Positions 3,630 to 59,669 of a DNA stretch of 64,000 nucleotides are shown here, piece after piece. The DNA lies in the NCBI RefSeq assembly GCF_001642935.1, contig NZ_CP016761.1, forward strand, positions 930,001 to 994,000, read 5' to 3'. The notes below the pieces were generated by a model. It was not told the DNA's origin. It made no database searches and worked only from the letters and a program-made list of their open reading frames with translations. The stretch's first letter is position 1, and the number at the start of each line of letters is the position of its first letter. A program made the translations under genes and the position numbers. The DNA is from Fictibacillus arsenicus. Lineage in GTDB: Bacteria > Bacillota > Bacilli > Bacillales > Fictibacillaceae.

Positions 3630-3939
3630 GGCTGTTTTCTAAAAGATTGGTAGGTACCTTGGTGTATATTTGTTATCTATCTCCATTGACTAGTTGATTT
3701 GAGAGCAAGGTACGAGACTCCTGCGTGCCAACCACCTGAAGATACTTCTTGCAAGGCATGCGACGAGGAACGCACTTCGTAAGGATTTGCTTGTAGACGC
3801 AGGAGCACACATACTTCCTTGAAGGTGAGACTTCTAAAGGCGCAAAGCGCGAGAAGGCTCACCGCCCGCCCCGCGGAAAGCGAGCATCCTGGAGCGGAAA
3901 TCAACCACTTCCAAAGGCATCAATGATTGCGAAATAAGA
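3630..3939 (+). mobile_element. MITE-like structured repeat, copy 2 (+ orientation, long variant)
   Basis: About 310 bp. The left end GGCTGTTTTCTAAAAGATTG is perfect; the right end is worn (GCGAAATAAG instead of GCGAAAACAGCC). Compared with the short form it has an extra module of about 90 bp after GACTCCTGCG, containing CTTGCAAGGCATGCGACGAG and GACGCAGGAGCAC. The same module is in copy 3. The GGTGAGAC...GGCTCACC hairpin with its GGCGC-AAA-GCGC cap follows. The element separates the MBL gene from the esterase operon; no target duplication is visible. Confidence 0.85.
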
Positions 3940-3961
3940 AAATCAAGATTAGGAGAATAAG

Positions 3962-4732
3962 ATGATACAAGAATTTAAGATTATGATAGAACAGCTTGGT
4001 GGTATTGAAAGACAGATCCGGGTCTTCCTCCCAGCTGGGTATGAGGAAACTGAAGAAACCTATCCGGTTTTGTATATGCATGACGGACAAAATCTTTTTC
4101 GTGATGAAGATGCTAGTTATGGCGTATCTTGGGGTCTTGCTGACTATCTGGAAGAAAGTAAAACACCGCTTATAATTGTAGGGATTGACTGCAATCATGA
4201 AGGATTTGAGCGCCTTAATGAATATGGTCCTTGGGAAAACCCGACTGTAGGACCAGAACTGCTTCAGATAGATGGTGTTTTTGGAGGAAAAGGGGAAGCG
4301 TATCTTGAATTTTTGCTTTATACATTAAAGCCGTTCATTGATGAAAAGTACCGAACGAAACCCGAAGTGACTTTAATGGCAGGGAGTTCAATGGGCGGGC
4401 TGATTTCAACCTATGCAGCATGCCGATATCCGCACATTTACAGCAGAATAGCAAGCTTGTCGTCTGCGTTTTGGTTCAACCAGCAGGAAATTGAAAGCTT
4501 CATAGAGGAAAGTGACTTGAGTGCTGTAGAAAAGTTTTATATGGACATAGGAACAGATGAAGATACTTCAAAAGTCGATGCAGGACATTACATTCGTTCT
4601 TCAGAAAAAGTATATGAAAAGCTCAAGGAAAAGGGTATTGAAGTACGCTTTGAAGTAGCAGAGGGCGGAAAGCATCATGAATCAGCTTGGCGTGAAAGAA
4701 TGCCGGAAATCATTGATTACTTGATGAAATAA
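3962..4732 (+). CDS. Alpha/beta-hydrolase esterase (esterase D/enterochelin esterase-like)
   Basis: The 256-residue cytoplasmic protein has a PVLYMHDGQNLF strand-turn region (about 36-47), a nucleophile elbow GSSMGG (Ser143) and a C-terminal GGKHHESAW histidine region (about 238-246). This is the typical order of the putative esterase family of alpha/beta-hydrolases. An AGGAGAATAAG site precedes the ATG. It is the first gene of a same-strand run reaching about 8567 with gaps of 4-36 bases, so cotranscription is likely. The substrate is unknown; siderophore or glucosyl esters are possibilities from the family only. Confidence 0.85.
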   Translation: MIQEFKIMIEQLGGIERQIRVFLPAGYEETEETYPVLYMHDGQNLFRDEDASYGVSWGLADYLEESKTPLIIVGIDCNHEGFERLNEYGPWENPTVGPELLQIDGVFGGKGEAYLEFLLYTLKPFIDEKYRTKPEVTLMAGSSMGGLISTYAACRYPHIYSRIASLSSAFWFNQQEIESFIEESDLSAVEKFYMDIGTDEDTSKVDAGHYIRSSEKVYEKLKEKGIEVRFEVAEGGKHHESAWRERMPEIIDYLMK

Positions 4733-11017: not shown

Positions 11018-11285
11018 GGCTGTTAGATGTGGTTGATTTCTGCTCCAGGATGCTCGCTTTCCGCGTGGCGTGCGGTGAGTCTCATTCAAGGAAGCATTTG
11101 TGCTCCTGCGTATGCGGGCAAATCCTGCCGAGGTGGGATTCCTCGTCGCATGCCTTGCAAGAAGAATACTCAAGTAGCTGGCACGCTGCTCCCGCAGGAG
11201 TCTCGCACCTTCCGCTCCAATCAACTTGTCTACGAAGGGTCTAAACAAAAACGAATCGAAAGGAATATACTTTTAGAAAATAGCC
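11018..11285 (-). mobile_element. MITE-like structured repeat, copy 3 (- orientation, long variant)
   Basis: 268 bp, from GGCTGTTAG to CTTTTAGAAAATAGCC. It is flanked by TTCTTTTT (11010-11017) and TTCTTATT (11286-11293), a 7/8 target duplication. It carries the same long module as copy 2 (CTTGCAAGGCATGCGACGAG in the element's own orientation) and the GTTGATTTCTGCTCC/GGATGCTCGCTTTCCGC landmarks. It landed in the terminator T-tract of the preceding gene. Confidence 0.9.
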
Positions 11286-17102: not shown

Positions 17103-17323
17103 AACTCTTTTCTAAAAGATTGTTGCCACTGAGAGATTTTGCCCGAAAATCTTCATTGCATAGTTAATTGGAGCGAAAGGACGAGACTCCTGCAGGATGA
17201 GTGGTACAGGTGAGACCACTCAATGTCGCGAGGCGACGAGGGGGCTCACCGGCCACCCTACGGAAAGCGAGTCCTGTAGCGGAAATTAACCTCTTACATA
17301 CAACAAAGTTTACAAAAACAGCT
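17103..17323 (+). mobile_element. MITE-like structured repeat, copy 4 (+ orientation)
   Basis: About 221 bp, from CTCTTTTCTAAAAGATTGTTG to ACAAAAACAGCT. The apical hairpin reads GTCGC-GAG-GCGAC rather than GGTGC/GCACC, a compensated change. GGTGAGACCACTC pairs with GAGGGGGCTCACC. The right end abuts the A-tract that is the T-tract of the minus-strand terminator at 17324-17354. No target duplication is recognisable. Confidence 0.85.
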
Positions 17324-26296: not shown

Positions 26297-26506
26297 AGTG
26301 TCTTTTCTAATAAATAGTTGCTTAAAAAACATCACTGACAAGTTGATAGGAGCGTAAGACGCGAGATTCCTGGGGGATCAGTGTGACAGGTGAGACACCT
26401 AATGGCCCAAAGTGCCGAGGTGGCTCACCGCACGTCCCCCCGGAAAGCGAGTACCTGAAACGGAGATCAACTACTTCCAAGAGCAACAAAGCTTGCGAAA
26501 ACAGCC
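26297..26506 (+). mobile_element. MITE-like structured repeat, copy 5 (+ orientation), perfect 8-bp duplication
   Basis: 210 bp, from AGTGTCTTTTC to GCGAAAACAGCC, flanked on both sides by TTTTGTTT (26289-26296 and 26507-26514). The core hairpin stem reads GACACCT/AGGTGGC where other copies read GACTCCT/AGGAGGC, a compensated pair of changes. It lies between the 51-residue gene and the phoD promoter. Confidence 0.93.
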
Positions 26507-28553: not shown

Positions 28554-28695
28554 TTGAGCGAAAAACAATGATTTTGAGCGAAACGACAAGTAGTTTGAGT
28601 GAAGATAGAGATTTTTGAGCGTACAAAGAGTTTTCTGAGCGAAGAACAAACTTTTTGAGCGAACGTGTAATAAATATAAGAACACGTACCGTAAA
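28554..28695 (+). repeat. Phased repeat array, TTTTTGAGCG core, 6 units plus ACGTGT/ACACGT tail
   Basis: The GAGCG core (GAGTG once) begins at 28556, 28576, 28597, 28617, 28637 and 28657, giving intervals of 20, 21, 20, 20 and 20. Each core is preceded by a T-run, and the ~13 bases between cores are not conserved. The array ends in a tail (28663-28695) where ACGTGT and ACACGT form an inverted repeat around AATAAATATAAGA, followed by ACCGTAAA. The same core and the same tail occur at 55825-55965. Confidence 0.9.
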
Positions 28696-28759: not shown

Positions 28760-29037
28760 AGCTCTTTTCTAAAGCATTGTTGCTTTAGGCTTTTTCTATT
28801 CTCATCATTGCAAGTTGATTGGAGCGCAAGGTTGCCGACTCCTCGAAAATGAAAATCACATTTTCTTCGTGCGATGAAACGCTGTCGAAGCCTTCCTTGT
28901 CCTACGGGACGAGCGGTCAGGTGGAGACTCCTAATGGCGCAAAGCGGCAGGAGGCTCACCGCATGCCCCGTGGAAAGCGAGCAGCCTGGAGCGGAAATCA
29001 ACTACTTTTAAAAGCAACAATGTATGCGAAAACAGCC
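28760..29037 (+). mobile_element. MITE-like structured repeat, copy 6 (+ orientation), perfect 8-bp duplication at the topB stop codon
   Basis: 278 bp, from AGCTCTTTTC to GCGAAAACAGCC, flanked by TTATTTTT at 28752-28759 and 29038-29045. The right copy contains the topB stop codon. It has a distinct inserted module of about 60 bases with a GAAAATG...CATTTTC hairpin before the usual GGTGGAGACTCCT...AGGAGGCTCACC stem. Confidence 0.93.
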
Positions 29038-32668: not shown

Positions 32669-32812
32669 GCGAGATTTTGCCATGTTTGCGTGGAACTGCA
32701 TATCTACCGCGGGAAACTGGCTATGATCTGCGTGGAATACTATGTGTACCGCGTGAACTGATAGTTGAATGCGTGCAACTCTATCTTTTTGCGTGATCGT
32801 GTAATAAATAAA
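32669..32812 (+). repeat. Phased repeat array, GCGTGRAA core, 7 units, tail split by a MITE
   Basis: The GCG of each core lies at 32669, 32688, 32709, 32730, 32751, 32771 and 32791 (intervals 19, 21, 21, 21, 20 and 20); most cores read TGCGTGGAA or CGCGTGAAC. The tail begins CGTGTAATAAATAAA at 32798, is interrupted by repeat copy 7, and resumes with TAAATAAAAGAACACG at 33038 through ACCGTAAA at about 33063. The array core matches that of the array at 53985. Confidence 0.85.
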
Positions 32813-33037
32813 GGCTGTTTTCGCAAGCTTTGTTGCTCTTGTAAGTAGTTGATTTCCGTTCCAGGTTGCTTCGCTTTCCGCGGGGCGTGCGGTGAGCCCC
32901 CTCGCCGCTTCGCGCCTTTGAGTGGTCTCACCTGACCGCTCGTCCCGCAGGAGTCTCGCACCTTCCACTCCAATCAACTTGTCAGTGAAGGGAATGAACA
33001 AAATTATTTAAAAGCAACAATCTTTTAGAAAACAGCC
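32813..33037 (-). mobile_element. MITE-like structured repeat, copy 7 (- orientation), perfect 8-bp duplication
   Basis: 225 bp, from GGCTGTTTTCGCAAGC to TTTTAGAAAACAGCC, flanked by TAAATAAA at 32805-32812 and 33038-33045. Removing the element and one copy restores the tail sequence found uninterrupted at 54089-54120, so this is a filled site with a known empty form. It is the clearest proof of transposition in the window. Confidence 0.95.
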
Positions 33038-33156
33038 TAAATAAAAGAACACGTACCGTAAAACTGCAGTAAGTAAGCAAGGAAACTAAAAATTTCTCTT
33101 ACGACCATAACAGCAAGATTGAGGACGATTTTTGAAGAATGTACTGATAAAATTAA

Positions 33157-37344: not shown

Positions 37345-38355
37345 ATGATGAAACTTAGTACAATGTTGAAAGTGGCAAGCACGGTTGACAGTGAATGGCG
37401 CAGTTCTATAGCAGAGAAAATCCTTGAGCATTGGGATTATGATGAAGGAAGTGTTTATGCTTTTCGTTACAGTGCGAACTTTATTTTCGTTTTTAAGAAA
37501 GATGAAGAGACTCATTTTTTGCGTTTCAATGAAGTTTCTGAAAGAGAACTTTCATTAATTGAAGCAGAAATGGAAATCTTAGATTATTTAGCTGGAACAT
37601 CATTACGTACTGTTAGACCAGTCTTATCGTTGAACGGAAAAAAGATAGAGCGAATCGAAGCCGAGAACGGAATTTATTACGCTTCTGTATTTAAAGCTCT
37701 TCCAGGAAAACAGTATGAGATCAATGAACTTGAAAAATATCAGTTTTTTATATGGGGAATGACGCTAGGGAAACTCCACGGTGAAATGAAAAAATGCGAT
37801 GAATCTGTTCATTTCAACCGCCTAACCTGGAGGGATCATTTAAACAGTGTCGAAAAGTTACTTCCGAAGCAAGAGACTGCTGCGAAAAAAGAGCTTGCCA
37901 ATCTTGTAAGCTGGGCTGAATCATTGCCGGTTACTCGAGAAAACTTCGGATTGATTCATTATGATTTTGAATTAGACAATCAGTGCTGGGAAAATGACGT
38001 GGCAGGTATCCTGGATTTTGATGATTGTGCCTATTATTGGTATGCCGCTGATATCGCTTTTGCATTAAGAGATCTTGATGAGCAAAAGATGACGAACCCT
38101 TTGTTTGCTGAATTCGTTAATGGATATGAAAGCGAAACGACCTTGGATTCTGATTTAGTAGAGCAGTTACCGATGTTTAATAGACTTCATGAACTTACGA
38201 TGTTTGTTAAATTACTTCGTTCAGTTGATATTCCAGATTCAGCAGATCATCCGGAGTGGATGTCGAATTTAAGAAAAAAGCTGGTTGAAAAAATAGAAAA
38301 ATATCGTTTTTCCTTTGAACGATTACATGTTAATAATAAGGAGTTGTTAAAATGA
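37345..38355 (+). CDS. APH-fold phosphotransferase (aminoglycoside phosphotransferase family enzyme)
   Basis: The 336-residue protein kinase-like fold shows FGLIHYDFELDNQCW, the catalytic HxDxxxxN loop (about 207-215), and VAGILDFDDCAYYWYAADIAFAL, the metal-binding aspartate segment (about 223-231). Such enzymes phosphorylate small molecules such as aminoglycosides, choline, homoserine or fructosamine; the substrate is not identifiable. An AGAGGTG site precedes the ATG. It overlaps the next gene by four bases (ATGA), and the hairpins upstream suggest attenuated expression. Confidence 0.83.
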   Translation: MMKLSTMLKVASTVDSEWRSSIAEKILEHWDYDEGSVYAFRYSANFIFVFKKDEETHFLRFNEVSERELSLIEAEMEILDYLAGTSLRTVRPVLSLNGKKIERIEAENGIYYASVFKALPGKQYEINELEKYQFFIWGMTLGKLHGEMKKCDESVHFNRLTWRDHLNSVEKLLPKQETAAKKELANLVSWAESLPVTRENFGLIHYDFELDNQCWENDVAGILDFDDCAYYWYAADIAFALRDLDEQKMTNPLFAEFVNGYESETTLDSDLVEQLPMFNRLHELTMFVKLLRSVDIPDSADHPEWMSNLRKKLVEKIEKYRFSFERLHVNNKELLK

Positions 38356-38909
38356 AAAACGCACTATTAGTTATAGATGCTCAGCAGGAACTGATTGAAG
38401 GGAATAAAGAAGAACAAGCTGTTTTCAACAAAAATCATCTAATAAAGAATATTAACCTAGTAATTGAACAAGGAAAAGATGTGGGAGCGGAAATCATATT
38501 TGTTAGAGATCTGGACGTTGCAGAGGGTGAGGGAAAAGGTTTCGAAGTTCATTCGGAAATCCATGTACCTGAAGGAGCAGCATTTTTTAATAAAAAAGCC
38601 ACAAATGCCTTTTACGGTACTTCTCTATTAGACGATTTAAAAGAAAAAGAAATTAGTCATGTGGTGATTATGGGATGCAAAACAGAGCATTGCATTGATA
38701 CGGCAGTAAGAATGGCGACGGTAAACGGACTCGATGTGACATTAGTCGGCGATGGTCATTCAACGACAGACTCTGCTGTGTTAAAAGCTCAGCAGATCAT
38801 TGAACATCATAATAAAATTCTTCATGGCCATTATAACATTGATTATTTCTCGGTAGTCAGGAAGACAAGTGAAGATCTTTTCAGTCCGATTCATAATCAA
38901 TATCGATGA
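38352..38909 (+). CDS. Cysteine hydrolase, isochorismatase family
   Basis: The 185-residue protein has the isochorismatase-fold triad segments: LLVIDAQQEL (Asp9), FNKKATNAFYGTSL (Lys) and VVIMGCKTEHCIDTAVRMA (Cys at about 114). Proteins with this cysteine act as amidases, for example on nicotinamide, pyrazinamide or ureidoacrylate. The substrate is unknown. It is translationally coupled to the phosphotransferase by an ATGA overlap. The 66 bases after it lack a clear terminator. Confidence 0.87.
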   Translation: MKNALLVIDAQQELIEGNKEEQAVFNKNHLIKNINLVIEQGKDVGAEIIFVRDLDVAEGEGKGFEVHSEIHVPEGAAFFNKKATNAFYGTSLLDDLKEKEISHVVIMGCKTEHCIDTAVRMATVNGLDVTLVGDGHSTTDSAVLKAQQIIEHHNKILHGHYNIDYFSVVRKTSEDLFSPIHNQYR

Positions 38910-38990
38910 GCATCATTTTATTAGTCAACTGATTTTTCAGCTTGTATAATTAAAATTGAAATTGCTTTTAACTTTATGGGAGGCGTAAAG

Positions 38991-39464
38991 ATGAGTGAAT
39001 TAACATTTAAGAACTTTGAATTGTCACGAAGCTTTTTCCTGAAACATCTTGGGGAACTAGACAAAGAAACTGCAGAAGTTCAGCCAGAAGGATTCAACAA
39101 CAATATCCTTTGGCATGTTGGTCATGTTTTAACAACGGCTGAATATTTTATGTTTGGATATCCCGAAAAATCAAATCACCTTCCATTAAATTACATCGAT
39201 CTATTTAACAGAGGAACAAGTCCTGCTGACTGGAAAGGTGAAGTGCCATCCCTCTCTGAACTAACAGCACAACTGAAAGACCAAATGGCTCGAATAAAAG
39301 AAATTCCAGAAGACCGTTTGCAAGAAAAGTTAGAGAAACAATTTTTCGACTTCAAAACCTTCGGCGAATTGGTGAATTTCGCTGTGTTCCATGAAACGTA
39401 TCACCTTGGACAGATGCATGCGATGAAGAAAGTGATTGAAAAATCAAAAGTGCAACAAGGATAA
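38991..39464 (+). CDS. DinB superfamily protein
   Basis: The 157-residue four-helix protein has the three-histidine metal pattern in NNNILWHVGHVLTTAEYFM and FHETYHLGQMHAMKK. The family includes bacillithiol S-transferases (BstA-like) and many uncharacterised stress proteins. The ATG at 38991 follows GGGAGGCG at good spacing. TATAAT at 38945-38950 is a perfect -10 about 40 bases upstream. Repeat copy 8 separates the gene from its terminator. Confidence 0.83.
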   Translation: MSELTFKNFELSRSFFLKHLGELDKETAEVQPEGFNNNILWHVGHVLTTAEYFMFGYPEKSNHLPLNYIDLFNRGTSPADWKGEVPSLSELTAQLKDQMARIKEIPEDRLQEKLEKQFFDFKTFGELVNFAVFHETYHLGQMHAMKKVIEKSKVQQG

Positions 39465-39475
39465 AGATAATAAAA

Positions 39476-39698
39476 GGCTGTTTTCGCAAACTTGTTGCTC
39501 TTGAAAGTGGTTGATTTCCGCTCCAGGATGCTCGCTTTCCGCGGGGCGTGCGGTGAGCCTCCTCGGCGCTTTGCACCGTTAGGAGTCTCACCTGTCCCGC
39601 TGATCCCGCAGGAGTCTCGCACCTTGCACTCCAATCAACTTGCCAATGAAGAGAATGAAAGAAATAACCCAAAAGCAACAATCTTTTAGAGAAGAGCC
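39476..39698 (-). mobile_element. MITE-like structured repeat, copy 8 (- orientation), perfect 8-bp duplication
   Basis: 223 bp, from GGCTGTTTTCGCAAAC to TTTTAGAGAAGAGCC, flanked by TAATAAAA at 39468-39475 and 39699-39706. It sits three bases after the DinB stop and just before the DinB terminator. The apical hairpin is GGTGC-AAA-GCGCC in element orientation. Confidence 0.95.
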
Positions 39699-39703
39699 TA
39701 ATA

Positions 39704-39740
39704 AAAAGAGTGGTTCCTTAAATGGAAACCACTCTTTTTG
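39704..39740 (+). terminator. Terminator of the DinB gene, separated from it by repeat copy 8
   Basis: AAAGAGTGGTTCC pairs with GGAAACCACTCTTT around TTAAAT (one mismatch), followed by TTG. Confidence 0.85.
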
Positions 39741-39804
39741 AGTAAATAAGTTATGTACTTTTTGCACATGATTATGCTATTATATAAAAGACGCGCGTTA
39801 TTAT

Positions 39805-39848
39805 TTTTGTATATATATAATATCCCTTAATTATATTATATAACAAAA
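39805..39848. promoter_or_regulatory. AT-rich inverted repeat directly upstream of helD
   Basis: TTTTGTATATATATAATA is mirrored by TATTATATAACAAAA with a three-base length difference and an 11-base centre. It ends 44 bases before the helD ATG. It could be an operator or a leader hairpin. Confidence 0.45.
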
Positions 39849-39892
39849 TGGAAAAGCGTGTCAACAGAAAATTTATTTTAGGGAGAGATCGG

Positions 39893-42205
39893 ATGACGAC
39901 ATGGAATCGGGAGCAGCAGAATGAACAAGAAAGAGTAAATGAAGTAATCAAGGAACTTTCTCAAGCTACTTCTAGACTTCAAGAGCATTTAGGCGGAAAA
40001 CTATCTGATGTGGTCCAAATCCGAAAAAACTTTTGGTCGGACGTTACGGTGAACCTAGATGATCCTGATGATGCCATCGAAACAGCAGCAAGTATCAAAC
40101 AGCAATCTGAACTGTTATCTGAGATCGAGAGAAGTCATATTTCAGCGGAAAGCCGATTAAAAACATACGAAAAACTGAAGAATTCACCTTACTTTGGAAG
40201 AATTGATTTTAATGAAAATGGTGAAAGTGAAACGGAAAGAGTCTATCTTGGTATTGCTTCTTATTATGACGAAGCGACAAGTGAATTTTTAGTACATGAC
40301 TGGAGAGCGCCGATCTCAAGTTTGTATTATGATCACTCCCTGGGTGAGGCAAGCTTCAGGGCGCCAAGTGGTACGATAAAAGGCGATTTAGAATTAAAGC
40401 GGCAATTTATTATAAAAAACGGCCAGATTCAGGGGATGTTTGACACCGGAGAAGCGATTGGAGATGAACTTCTTCAGCAAGTCCTTGGTAATCAGGCGAA
40501 TACTCAAATGAAAAGTATAGTGGCGACCATTCAAAAAGAACAGAATGCCATTATACGAAACACGGAAAGTGATTTGCTTATCGTACAAGGAGCAGCAGGA
40601 TGCGGAAAAACATCTGCTGCACTGCAGCGTGTAGCCTATCTTTTATACCGTGACAGGGAAACCCTACAATCCCATCATATTGTTTTGTTTTCTCCAAATA
40701 ACATGTTCAATAGCTATGTCGCAAACGTCCTTCCTGAACTTGGGGAAGAAAATATGGAACAGACTACTTTTCAAGCTTATATCGATCACCATTTAGCCGA
40801 GGAATTTTCAGTTGAAACGCCATTTGAACAAATGGAGGCAATTCTTTCTGGTGTTGGTGAATCTTCACGGGTTGAAGGAATCAAATTTAAAGCGTCCGTT
40901 GATTTCTTAGAGGCCATCCATCAATATGTTGAAAAGCTAAGTGAATCTGGTATGCAATTTTTAGATGTTAAGTTTCGGGATAAAACAGTGATTCGAGCGA
41001 AACAGATCAGTGAATACTTTTATTCTTTAGACTCACGAGAAACAATTCCTTATCGCATGAAACAAACATCCCATTGGATTTTAAATGAATTGAAACTAGC
41101 TGAAAGAAAAGAACGCAAGAAACCATGGGTCGAAAAGGAAATTCAGTTTTTAGATAAGTCGGTCTACACAAAGCTTTATGAACAGCTGCAAAAACGAAAC
41201 AAATATGATGCTGATTCCTTTAACGACTTGGCGAGTGAACAGAAAGTCTTGTCAGCATATGTAACAAGACTGGCGTTTAAGTCACTTCGAAAATCTGTTG
41301 AAGAATGTACCTTTTTAGACATGAAGAGTTTATATGCTAAGCTGTTTCAAAAAAATAATAAATTATTGCAAGAGTACGATGTATGGAGTGAAATCTGTAA
41401 TCAAACGCTATTTAATCTAAAGCAAAACCATTTAGCAAATGAAGATGCTACACCATTTCTTTATGTAAAAGAGTTGTTGATTGGATTTCAAACAAATGCA
41501 GCTGTCAGACATGTTTTCATTGATGAAGCTCAGGACTTTTCGCCATTTCAATTTGCTTTTATACAGCGCATTTTTCCGAGAGCCAGATTAACTGTACTCG
41601 GTGATCTAAATCAATCCATCTATGCGCATGCTTCAGATCAGTCTTTTAGTATGCTGGAGAAATTATTAGACAAGAAGCATACGGAAACGATTACGCTTAC
41701 GAGAAGCTACCGTTCTACAAAAGAGATTGTAGATTTTACGAAAAGTCTTTTAAAAGATGATAGCGGAATTATTCCATTTAACAGACCGGGAGAAAAGCCA
41801 TCTGTTGTGAAGGTGGATGGAGAAGAGCAGATTCACGAGGAATTAGAAAGCCTTATTAATTCCTGGCTGAAAGACGGTCATGAAACGATTGCTGTCATTT
41901 GCAGGACTGCCAAAGAAAGTTTACATGTATATGAAAAACTAAAGTCAAAGTTAGATCTAAGACTAATGATTAATGAGGATGCAGCATTTCAAAAAGGCAT
42001 TATTATCATCCCTTCCTATTTGGCGAAGGGAATAGAGTTTGATGCAGCAGCTATTTACGACGCTTCAGGTTATCAAAAGGAACGCGAGCGAAAACTTTTC
42101 TATACGGTTTGTACACGTGCCATGCATGAGTTGACCGTTTTTTACAAAGGTTCACCTTGTCCATTTATTAAAGAAGCTCCGAAGACTCTATATAAAATCA
42201 ATTAA
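39893..42205 (+). CDS. helD: HelD: SF1 (UvrD-like) ATPase that recycles RNA polymerase
   Basis: The 770-residue protein starts with a coiled N-terminal arm (NEQERVNEVIKELSQATSRLQEHL, 8-31). It has a Walker A loop QGAAGCGKTSAALQR (Lys239/Thr240), a Walker B HVFIDEAQDFSPFQ, LGDLNQSIYAH and a C-terminal SF1 helicase half with IIPSYLAKGIEFDAAAIYDAS and YTVCTRAMHEL. Length and layout match Bacillus HelD, which pulls stalled RNA polymerase off DNA. The ATG at 39893 has a GGGAGAG site; ATG 39848 has none. Confidence 0.92.
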   Translation: MTTWNREQQNEQERVNEVIKELSQATSRLQEHLGGKLSDVVQIRKNFWSDVTVNLDDPDDAIETAASIKQQSELLSEIERSHISAESRLKTYEKLKNSPYFGRIDFNENGESETERVYLGIASYYDEATSEFLVHDWRAPISSLYYDHSLGEASFRAPSGTIKGDLELKRQFIIKNGQIQGMFDTGEAIGDELLQQVLGNQANTQMKSIVATIQKEQNAIIRNTESDLLIVQGAAGCGKTSAALQRVAYLLYRDRETLQSHHIVLFSPNNMFNSYVANVLPELGEENMEQTTFQAYIDHHLAEEFSVETPFEQMEAILSGVGESSRVEGIKFKASVDFLEAIHQYVEKLSESGMQFLDVKFRDKTVIRAKQISEYFYSLDSRETIPYRMKQTSHWILNELKLAERKERKKPWVEKEIQFLDKSVYTKLYEQLQKRNKYDADSFNDLASEQKVLSAYVTRLAFKSLRKSVEECTFLDMKSLYAKLFQKNNKLLQEYDVWSEICNQTLFNLKQNHLANEDATPFLYVKELLIGFQTNAAVRHVFIDEAQDFSPFQFAFIQRIFPRARLTVLGDLNQSIYAHASDQSFSMLEKLLDKKHTETITLTRSYRSTKEIVDFTKSLLKDDSGIIPFNRPGEKPSVVKVDGEEQIHEELESLINSWLKDGHETIAVICRTAKESLHVYEKLKSKLDLRLMINEDAAFQKGIIIIPSYLAKGIEFDAAAIYDASGYQKERERKLFYTVCTRAMHELTVFYKGSPCPFIKEAPKTLYKIN

Positions 42206-42212
42206 TCATTAC

Positions 42213-42244
42213 AAAAATTCGCTGTTCTGCTGAACAGCGGATTT
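42213..42244 (+). terminator. Terminator of helD
   Basis: AAATTCGCTGTTC pairs with GAACAGCGGATTT around TGCT, followed by TTT. Confidence 0.88.
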
Positions 42245-42298
42245 TTTATTTTGAATTTCTTGAAATGGGGTAAGGATAAGAAAGAAGGAGGGAAATCT

Positions 42299-42745
42299 GT
42301 GCCGTTTGATTATGACCTTGATTTTGAACATATCGATTTTAGAGAGAACCGAGACAAATATAGAGTTGGCCGCGGAGAACAAGGAGTGCTTCTTGTAGAG
42401 CCATATAAAAGTGAGATTCTTCCTCATTGGCGTTTTAAAACACCAGACGAAGCTAAAGAGTCATCAGAGAAAATCTATGAACAATTTTTGGAGTATAAAA
42501 AGAATAAAGATTTCGTTGGCGCTGATATGGCAAGGAAGTTTTTGCAGATGGGTTATACCCGTGCAAGGCGATACACCAATTACAAGGGTGGCAGAAAATA
42601 TGATGAAAACGATGAGGTCAATGAAAGACAGATCGATCCTGTCAAAGCAAAGTCAGCTGCGATTTTTGAAGAGAAGTGGAAACTCGCCAGAACAGATGAA
42701 GAGTATTTGAAGATGAAAAAGGCACATCAAAAAGAGTTTGGATAA
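42299..42745 (+). CDS. DUF4385 family protein
   Basis: The 148-residue protein begins VPFDYDLDFEHIDFRENRDKYRVGRGEQGVLLVEPYKSEILPHWRFKT, a block characteristic of DUF4385. GADMARKFLQMGYTRARRY follows. The function is unknown. The GTG at 42299 lies six bases after AAGGAGGG; longer starts would place that site inside the gene. A compact terminator follows the stop. Confidence 0.82.
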   Translation: MPFDYDLDFEHIDFRENRDKYRVGRGEQGVLLVEPYKSEILPHWRFKTPDEAKESSEKIYEQFLEYKKNKDFVGADMARKFLQMGYTRARRYTNYKGGRKYDENDEVNERQIDPVKAKSAAIFEEKWKLARTDEEYLKMKKAHQKEFG

Positions 42746-42776
42746 ACACCTCTATTCTTGTTAGAGGTGTTTGTTA
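42744..42776. terminator. Bidirectional terminator after the DUF4385 gene
   Basis: AAACACCTCTA pairs with TAGAGGTGTTT around TTCTTGT. It overlaps the stop codons of both convergent genes. Confidence 0.85.
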
Positions 42777-42959
42777 TTGTTCTCCGCCACCGCCAATTCC
42801 GCCGCCACCGCTTGTGAACCGATCACCCATCTGGTAGTTTGAATGTTCACCAGGTTTTGCTGAAGAATGATGGGAATGATTGTTGTTCTTTTTGCGCCGC
42901 CAATCTACAAAGAATGCAAACAATAGAATGAACCCAATAAAAAGAAAGAACCAAATCAT
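42774..42959 (-). CDS. Small single-pass membrane protein, 61 residues
   Basis: One N-terminal helix (MIWFFLFIGFILLFAFFVDW) is followed by RRKKNNNHSHHSS and a glycine-rich tail ending FTSGGGGIGGGGEQ. The ATG at 42959 follows CAAGGAGGTCTG, while the ATG at 42983 has no site. A His-rich patch after the helix might bind metal. I recognise no family. Confidence 0.65.
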   Translation of the reverse strand: MIWFFLFIGFILLFAFFVDWRRKKNNNHSHHSSAKPGEHSNYQMGDRFTSGGGGIGGGGEQ

Positions 42960-43037
42960 GACAGACCTCCTTGAAATATTCATATACTAATAAGCTATGG
43001 TTATCAGCATGAAGTGTTCTGTATTGTTTAAATAAAA

Positions 43038-43262
43038 GGCTCTCTCTGGAAAAGATTGTTGTTTTTGACGAATTTGTTTCCTACTCTTCTTTGACAAGTT
43101 GATTGGAGCGGAAAGACGCGAGACTCCTGCGGGATCAGCGGGACAGGTGAGACTCCTAAGGGCGCAAAGCGCCGAGGAGGCTCACCGCACGCCCCGCGGA
43201 AAGCGAGTGTCTTGGAGCGGAAATCAACAACTTTCAAGAGCTCAAATTTTGCATAAACAGCC
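43038..43262 (+). mobile_element. MITE-like structured repeat, copy 9 (+ orientation)
   Basis: 225 bp, from GGCTCTCTCTGGAAAAGATTGTTG to GCATAAACAGCC, flanked by AAATAAAA and GAACAAAA (6/8 identity, a worn duplication). It has the most consensus-like core: GGTGAGACTCCT, then GGCGC-AAA-GCGCC, then AGGAGGCTCACC. Its right end lies in the T-tract of the minus-strand terminator at 43263-43307. Confidence 0.9.
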
Positions 43263-43307
43263 GAACAAAAAAACAGCAAAGACTTTTCACTCGTGATGTC
43301 TTTACTG
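43263..43307 (-). terminator. Terminator of the coiled-coil gene at 43302
   Basis: On the minus strand CAGTAAAGAC pairs with GTCTTTGCTG and is followed by TTTTTTTGTTC. The stop codon lies within the first arm. Confidence 0.85.
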
Positions 43308-43604
43308 TCGGCTTTTTCCCTCTAATTCGGTTTCAACTTTAAATATCCGTTTATTTAATACTTGAGCTGTATCATCAAAGTGGTGAATAATCTTATCTGT
43401 ATAATCTCCCATACTTGTGATGACATTTGTATTGAGCTTGTCTAGCTTGTATTCGATCCGTTTTTGCCCAGCAATCAAAATGAATTGTTGTTTCTTGAAT
43501 TCTTCCTGATTAGAAGTTAAAGCACCTTGAACATTTTTAATATCGTTAATATCATTTCGAATTTCTTTCATTTCGGTAAGGATCAGTTTTAGAGTATCTT
43601 CCAT
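43302..43604 (-). CDS. Coiled-coil hypothetical protein, 100 residues
   Basis: The sequence is helical throughout, with heptad-like hydrophobic spacing (LKLILTEMKEIRNDINDIKNVQGALTSN and IEYKLDKLNTNVI), suggesting an oligomeric coiled coil. GAGGAGC precedes the ATG. I recognise no specific family; similar small proteins are common in Bacilli. Confidence 0.65.
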   Translation of the reverse strand: MEDTLKLILTEMKEIRNDINDIKNVQGALTSNQEEFKKQQFILIAGQKRIEYKLDKLNTNVITSMGDYTDKIIHHFDDTAQVLNKRIFKVETELEGKSRQ

Positions 43605-53984: not shown

Positions 53985-54120
53985 GCGTGAAAGGAACAAG
54001 GTCTTGCGTGAAAAGTAGGAATTCTTGCGAGAAACTTTTTGCGTGGAAAGGATGAGATCGTGCGTGGAACGGAAGAATCTCTGCGTGAACGTGTAACAAA
54101 TAAAAGAACACGTACCGTTA
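53985..54120 (+). repeat. Phased repeat array, TTGCGTGRAA core, 6 units plus tail
   Basis: GCG of the core lies at 53985, 54006, 54027, 54041, 54062 and 54083 (intervals 21, 21, 14, 21 and 21). The single 14 keeps a multiple of seven. The tail (54089-54120) reads ACGTGTAACAAATAAAAG then ACACGTACCGTTA, an uninterrupted version of the one split by repeat copy 7. It lies between the GH144-like terminator and the acyl-CoA dehydrogenase gene. Confidence 0.9.
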
Positions 54121-54188
54121 ACAAAAGGGATAATGATAATTTAAGCGAAATAAATCATAAATACTACTAGCGATAAGGAGTGATTTTC

Positions 54189-55824: not shown

Positions 55825-55965
55825 GAGCGAAAAGTGGTGCTTTTTGAGTGTAGCTAGCTCATTTTGAGCGAAACTCAACCACTTTTGAGCGCAGATTAGA
55901 GTTTTTGAGCGTAGGTCTGAATTTTTGAGCGTACGTGTAATAAATATAAGAACACGTACCGTAAA
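55825..55965 (+). repeat. Phased repeat array, TTTTTGAGCG core, 6 units plus tail
   Basis: GAGCG (GAGTG once) begins at 55825, 55846, 55866, 55887, 55907 and 55927 (intervals 21, 20, 21, 20 and 20), each preceded by a T-run. The tail (55933-55965) is identical over 31 bases to that at 28663. It begins 10 bases after the dehydrogenase stop with no terminator between, so it should be transcribed. Confidence 0.92.
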
Positions 55966-59426: not shown

Positions 59427-59633
59427 CGTTCTTATTTAAAGATTGTTGTTTAATGGATTATTTTTTCTTTCTCCTTTCTCTTCATTGCAAGTTGATTGGA
59501 GTGAAAGGTGCGTGCCTACTACCTGAGAAGCTTCTCGCAAGGCATGCGACGAGGGGGCTCACCGCACACCCTGCGGAAAGCGAGCATCCTGAAATGGAAA
59601 TCAACCCTTTCAAATAACAACAAAGAAATAGCC
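59427..59633 (+). mobile_element. MITE-like structured repeat, copy 10 (+ orientation), in the GH3 leader
   Basis: About 207 bp, worn ends (CTTATTTAAAGATTGTTG left, AAAGAAATAGCC right). The core is shortened: after GGTGCGTGCCTACTACCTGAG it has the CTCGCAAGGCATGCGACGAG piece of the long variants, joined directly to GGGGGCTCACCGCAC. It has lost the left half of the main hairpin. It lies wholly within the transcribed leader between the operator and the GH3 ribosome site. Confidence 0.82.
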
Positions 59634-59669
59634 CTAAATTTTAATAAAACTTATAAGGAGCGCGGGTGA

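Follow-up and report, generated by a model that had tools for sequence, protein, structure and literature searches.

Miniature transposons with IS1595-like ends in Fictibacillus arsenicus carry a hairpin-like core module of order-wide distribution

The window analysed here, a 64,000-nt stretch of Fictibacillus arsenicus (contig NZ_CP016761.1, positions 930,001–994,000), holds a family of non-coding elements of about 220 bp, mostly about 205–350 bp long and without a transposase gene. Scanned with a profile made from other copies, the window gives exactly ten of them, essentially where ten related non-coding elements had been proposed in the original prediction. They total 2380 bp or 3.7% of the window, against the 3.6% or so first estimated. 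On the minus strand they lie at 1515–1735 (profile match 1519–1734), 3630–3934, 17103–17323 (also a profile match), 26297–26506, 28760–29037, 43038–43262 and 59427–59634, the last being shortened. On the plus strand they lie at 11018–11285 and 32813–33037, and the remaining copy spans 39476–39698.

The copy under study, 32813–33037, has the inverted ends GGCTGTTTTC...GAAAACAGCC, as predicted, and sits within another repeat. The copy at 39476 is divided into a left IS1595-type end (GGCTGTTTTCGCAAACTTGTTGCT..., 39476–39509, plus), a conserved core (39510–39640, minus; GTTGATTGGAG...GGAAATCAAC) and a spacer with the right IS1595-type end (39641–39698, plus). Alternative inner modules occur in the core copies at 3630, where a different module interrupts the core, 11018, 28760 (a GAAAATG..CATTTTC variant) and 59427. 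A module like that of 28760 is also seen in a Bacillus subtilis plasmid copy (L105).

A second repeat family lies at 28613–28695, 54039–54121, 55883–55965 and 32700–32812 with 33038–33075. Its short tandem units vary between arrays (TTTTGAGCG.. or TGCGTGGAA..), and a nearly invariant CGTGTAATAAATAAAAGAACACGTACCGTAAA comes after them.

Perfect 8-bp duplications flank the copies at 28760 (TTATTTTT), 32813 (TAAATAAA), 39476 (TAATAAAA) and 26297 (TTTTGTTT, from sequence reading), and imperfect ones flank those at 11018 (7/8, TTCTTTTT/TTCTTATT) and 43038 (6/8). All six had been noted before and were found again. Across 864 kb of the genome both ends could be located in 36 of 78 elements, and the 8-bp flanks of these agree at 8/8 in five and at 7/8 in three, where shuffled right flanks give an expectation of 0.2 and 0.6, respectively. 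No duplication length other than 8 bp is enriched among these 36 elements. The 8-bp flanks are 86% A/T, compared with 66% in the next 12 bp.

Congeners differ in their insertions around 38352–43604. The site at 39476 is occupied here and also in G014, where the interior differs, while in G002 and G013 it is empty with one target copy. The site at 43038 is filled here and empty in G002 and G014. Conversely, the target TTTTATTT at 42244–42251 (plus) is empty here and holds a core-bearing copy in G002, between two TTTTATTT, and in G014. The copy at 32813 interrupts another repeat, which provides its empty counterpart within the window. The family is mobile and its insertion sites differ between species of the genus, with clean empty sites.

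The 864 kb comprise the window and 40 stretches of 20 kb, and the 78 copies in them correspond to about 366 per genome if they are typical of the rest. A first look at the whole genome gave 351 candidates, of which 40 were scored. Because each genome search scored a subset of its candidates (40 per genome, or 3 in the order-wide core search), copy numbers per genome are first-look counts. The element is present in all 18 genomes of the genus. Some copies adjoin one another (L085 5152–5549, L086 19452–19804 and L090 6481–6990), which suggests insertion beside older copies.

The mover was originally thought to be an ISL3-family transposase acting from elsewhere. A/T-rich duplications of 8 bp are indeed made by the order's ISL3 elements, some of which start with GGCTCTT, but such a duplication is common to ISL3 and IS1595 and so does not decide between them. 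The ISL3 domain PF01610 is absent from all 18 genus genomes, this one included, and from 33 of 34 family genomes; it occurs in one family genome and in 112 of 299 genomes of the order. Ends could be found in 12 of 30 ISL3 loci and are of kinds other than the MITE's, such as GGCTCTTCGCTATTTAG or GGTTCTAAGTCAAATGTTGGGG. Only one isolated end of the MITE type appears in those 30 loci (L149).

The IS1595 transposase (PF12762), found in 60 of 299 order genomes, fits better. Of 30 IS1595 loci, eight have on both sides of the transposase the 25-bp MITE-type ends, here T1, of the kind GGCTSTTTTC..TTGTTGCT (also given as GGCTSTTTTC..AGATTGTTGCT), and in 11 the two ends belong to a second type, T2 (GGCTNTGTTAAA..TGTTGAT). 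The ends of seven of the 12 ISL3 loci with ends found, and of six T1 and six T2 IS1595 loci, were compared on the MITE end profile. The T1 pairs score 28–34 bits, above the MITE's own median of 23.7, whereas the ISL3 ends score −13 to 7 bits (average −2.7) and the tested T2 ends 2.1 on average. L186 is not counted as a T1 pair, its second end being damaged (10.1 bits).

Several T1 loci have 8/8 duplications, such as L183 (TTATTTTT), where the 336-aa ORF between the ends is an IS1595 transposase (NF033547, E 2.7e-63; PF12762). In one genome (G159) a T1-type IS (L187) coexists with core-bearing MITEs that share its ends and have 8/8 duplications. By this likeness the elements are judged to have the ends of IS1595-family transposons and not of ISL3, and movement by an ISL3 transposase is highly improbable. 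Hence, the original interpretation stands as to a non-autonomous, mobile element with 8-bp A/T-rich duplications and a transposase from elsewhere, and falls as to the family of that transposase.

Neither PF12762 nor NF033547 has a match in this genome. No T1-type IS1595 was found in the genus, where two transposase matches over the cut-off and a fragment (L419) adjoin T2 ends, the type of all the genus matches whose ends could be read. As no IS1595 transposase is detectable in the genome, the family is probably stranded here. A search of the 864 kb for end-like sites outside the known elements revealed no autonomous element with these ends, only two strong solo matches, one in an element with a different interior (L097) and the other without a second end in the stretch inspected (L077).

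At L097 (about 3930–4145) the IS1595-type end pair apparently encloses a tandem array of the second repeat family and not the core, so the same ends may carry other interiors. Viral contigs gave one match with a single end (L176), and the phages searched gave none. IS1182 elements of the own genome were considered and rejected for their other ends. Four IS1182-family copies of this genome (L110, L111, L114 and L115) each have one arm of a terminator-like hairpin on either side, which suggests insertion into hairpin loops.

The original prediction overlooked that the greater part of the element forms a module of its own, distributed far more widely. The 131-bp core (39510–39640) is a discrete unit at whose borders matches stop. 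The core alone (query 39510–39642) has matches in 161 of the 249 order genomes searched and in 69 of 105 genera. Beyond the order it is rare: in a phylum-wide draw of 398 genomes, searched with strict filters, it matches in four including the own, and one of these lies outside the order, though within the same class. Carriers among the matches listed are Alkalihalobacillus macyae, Pseudalkalibacillus hwajinpoensis, Neobacillus, Psychrobacillus and Peribacillus. The core also appears in a record titled Pseudomonas sp. ISL-84 (L291, L307), which is probably a misassigned or contaminated assembly.

The core occurs between different ends. Strict T1 ends lie at 18 of 90 core loci (six families, nine genomes), with 8/8 duplications in 12 of the 18, and strict T2 ends at 10 (three families, five genomes), with 8/8 duplications in six; the other 62 have no strict end pair. 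A looser classification was dropped after its T1 pattern matched 19 of 180 reversed flanks. Plasmid matches cover the middle of the element only, and on the Peribacillus plasmid pA the core region lies directly upstream of an annotated IS1182 transposase. IS1182-type settings were seen at L104 and, with the transposase start recognised by eye from likeness to L104, at L102 and L416. Across the order the core thus behaves as a module in its own right, found within IS1595 ends of two types and in elements of the IS1182 type.

None of the 32 IS1595 loci examined contains the core. The element can accordingly be described from its sequence as a chimeric MITE, whose interior does not derive from the parent IS and whose filing as IS1595-derived rests on the ends and the duplication. 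An interior derived from the parent is a trait of deletion-derivative MITEs and not of all MITEs. The terminal repeat of the T2 elements already contains the first part of the core, which begins 19 bp from the end, so the shared GTTGATT may have been left by older T2 ends. A tree of cores clusters by host family (32 changes against 69.6 when shuffled), with most forks unresolved.

The window core folds better than all of 200 shuffles on either strand. In an alignment of 62 of the 90 cores, selected as the sequences most like the window core with near-duplicates left out, 97.4% of cells over 44 pairs of the minus strand are paired. Both sides change in 18 of the 44 pairs, giving 74 such cells against 13.6 when shuffled. 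Because structure and counts come from one and the same alignment, the slid-partner controls, in which pairing falls to 36–51%, and the own-copy controls matter most. Two mismatched GGA/GGA loops and a GA/GA loop are largely constant while the short helices between them swap pairs, although ordinary pairs replace the GA/GA step in some lineages. A divergent core (G114) is still found by the model, though several of its helices differ. As aligned, the two arms of the core covary strongly, in the manner of a hairpin whose internal loops are conserved.

Template switching or conversion between arms readily occurs in long hairpins, and such mutation mechanisms could keep the core palindromic without any function. 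This also accords with the own copies, paired at just 90.7% on average. However, such correction would remove the GGA/GGA and GA/GA mismatches, whose loops are kept throughout the order, and gives no reason for G-U to outnumber A-C. The mutational account is therefore improbable.

The G-U excess is seen between species on the minus strand, where G-U outnumbers A-C by 46 to 10 at the 37 pairs on which the foldings of the two strands agree. It persists with a single count for each genome and pair (41 to 10) or for each family (37 to 10). DNA hairpins also tolerate G-T better than A-C, so the asymmetry is no proof of RNA, and the hairpin could instead matter as single-stranded DNA, a one-strand signal in replication or transfer. 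IS1595 elements, on the other hand, are DDE transposons with no known single-stranded stage, and the copies have no replication-strand bias (plus/minus 21/17 and 15/12 in the two halves, with crude gene calls). We regard the DNA version as rather unlikely, if still a serious one, and retain RNA as the probable form of the hairpin.

Within the own genome the picture changes. Among the 46 full-length copies of 88 core matches, all changes give G-U 54 and A-C 27, so part of the G-U excess is inherited and not independent. Rare changes, present in five copies or fewer, give G-U 13 and A-C 18, and singletons 3 and 6. Singletons are evenly spread, at 11.6, 14.6 and 11.3 per 1000 in paired positions, conserved loops and variable loops, respectively. 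With no G-U excess in the rare changes and this even spread, the settled copies seem free to decay, and it would be the spreading lineage that keeps the fold.

The same data bear on a role for the host, the core acting as a terminator, an mRNA stabilizer or a binding site, much as REP or BIME sequences have been suggested to do. The copies are intergenic and could end or protect transcripts. Their private changes, however, fall evenly over paired, conserved and variable columns, and the insertions at the examined sites are not conserved between species. The gene settings, 43 co-directional, 14 divergent and 8 convergent, are near the background of 199, 88 and 57. By the same crude gene calls the copies have no orientation bias relative to co-directional genes (22 to 21). 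A host function is thus very doubtful, and the core is probably a one-strand hairpin, most plausibly RNA, selected during propagation and not at each insertion.

Taken together, we consider with good confidence that the elements are miniature IS1595-type transposons with an independent core hairpin selected on the spreading lineage. An IS1595-family transposase would have bound the MITE ends in trans and moved them, and would since have been lost from this genome. The core would have to fold as a one-strand hairpin, most likely RNA, for the element to propagate, and the selection would act on the spreading lineage and lapse after a copy settles. More tentatively, the core is possibly an undescribed transposon-borne RNA or one-strand hairpin, captured in turn by IS1595-type MITEs and IS1182 elements, that aids the spread of its carriers and outlives each end set.

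The part of a MITE between its ends is commonly regarded as filler that could be dispensed with. In this family the ends change whereas the interior stays conserved throughout an order, and the covariation of that interior indicates that the hairpin is selected during propagation and not on the settled copies. If confirmed, this would make a testable case of an RNA or a hairpin aiding transposon spread, and the core would serve as a marker present in roughly two thirds of the order genomes searched.

No description of the core or the element was found in the open literature, by sequence string or by topic. Rfam 15 gave no covariance-model match at gathering score in the window, and none of the weak E-value matches around the copy at 39476 falls on the core. 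In a review of prokaryotic MITEs a term search found none of IS1595, ISL3 and Bacillus. Among known families, the stem-loop repeat Bhal-1 of Bacillus halodurans is listed as 74 bp in 36 copies (PMC2267715). It resembles the core as a stem-loop repeat family in a Bacillus species, and the comparison is one of descriptions, so an overlap with the core is possible.

The bcr1–bcr3 repeats of the Bacillus cereus group are, like ours, high-copy, intergenic and MITE-like, and are often transcribed within UTRs (PMC3446304, PMC6542083). In the parts of these sources consulted their mobility is tied to a TTTAT motif and to the B. cereus group. Ours are set apart from them, by description and not by sequence, in the IS1595 ends, the 8-bp duplications and the order-wide core. 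BOX and RUP of Streptococcus pneumoniae are also mobile repeats with predicted RNA folds, and BOX shares with ours the optional internal modules (PMC3049150). They belong to another host group, and the portion of that account seen describes no single core common to unrelated transposon ends.

Likenesses also exist to the transposons themselves. The IS1595 family (ISXO2-like transposase, PF12762, NF033547) has in common with the MITE the terminal repeats and the 8-bp A/T-rich duplications; the MITE is without the transposase and the IS1595 loci examined are without the core. The IS1182-family elements L102, L104 and L416 have the same core upstream of their transposase, whereas their ends and transposase differ from those of the MITE. 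In them the core reads in the direction of the transposase, so that its G-U strand is antisense to the transposase.
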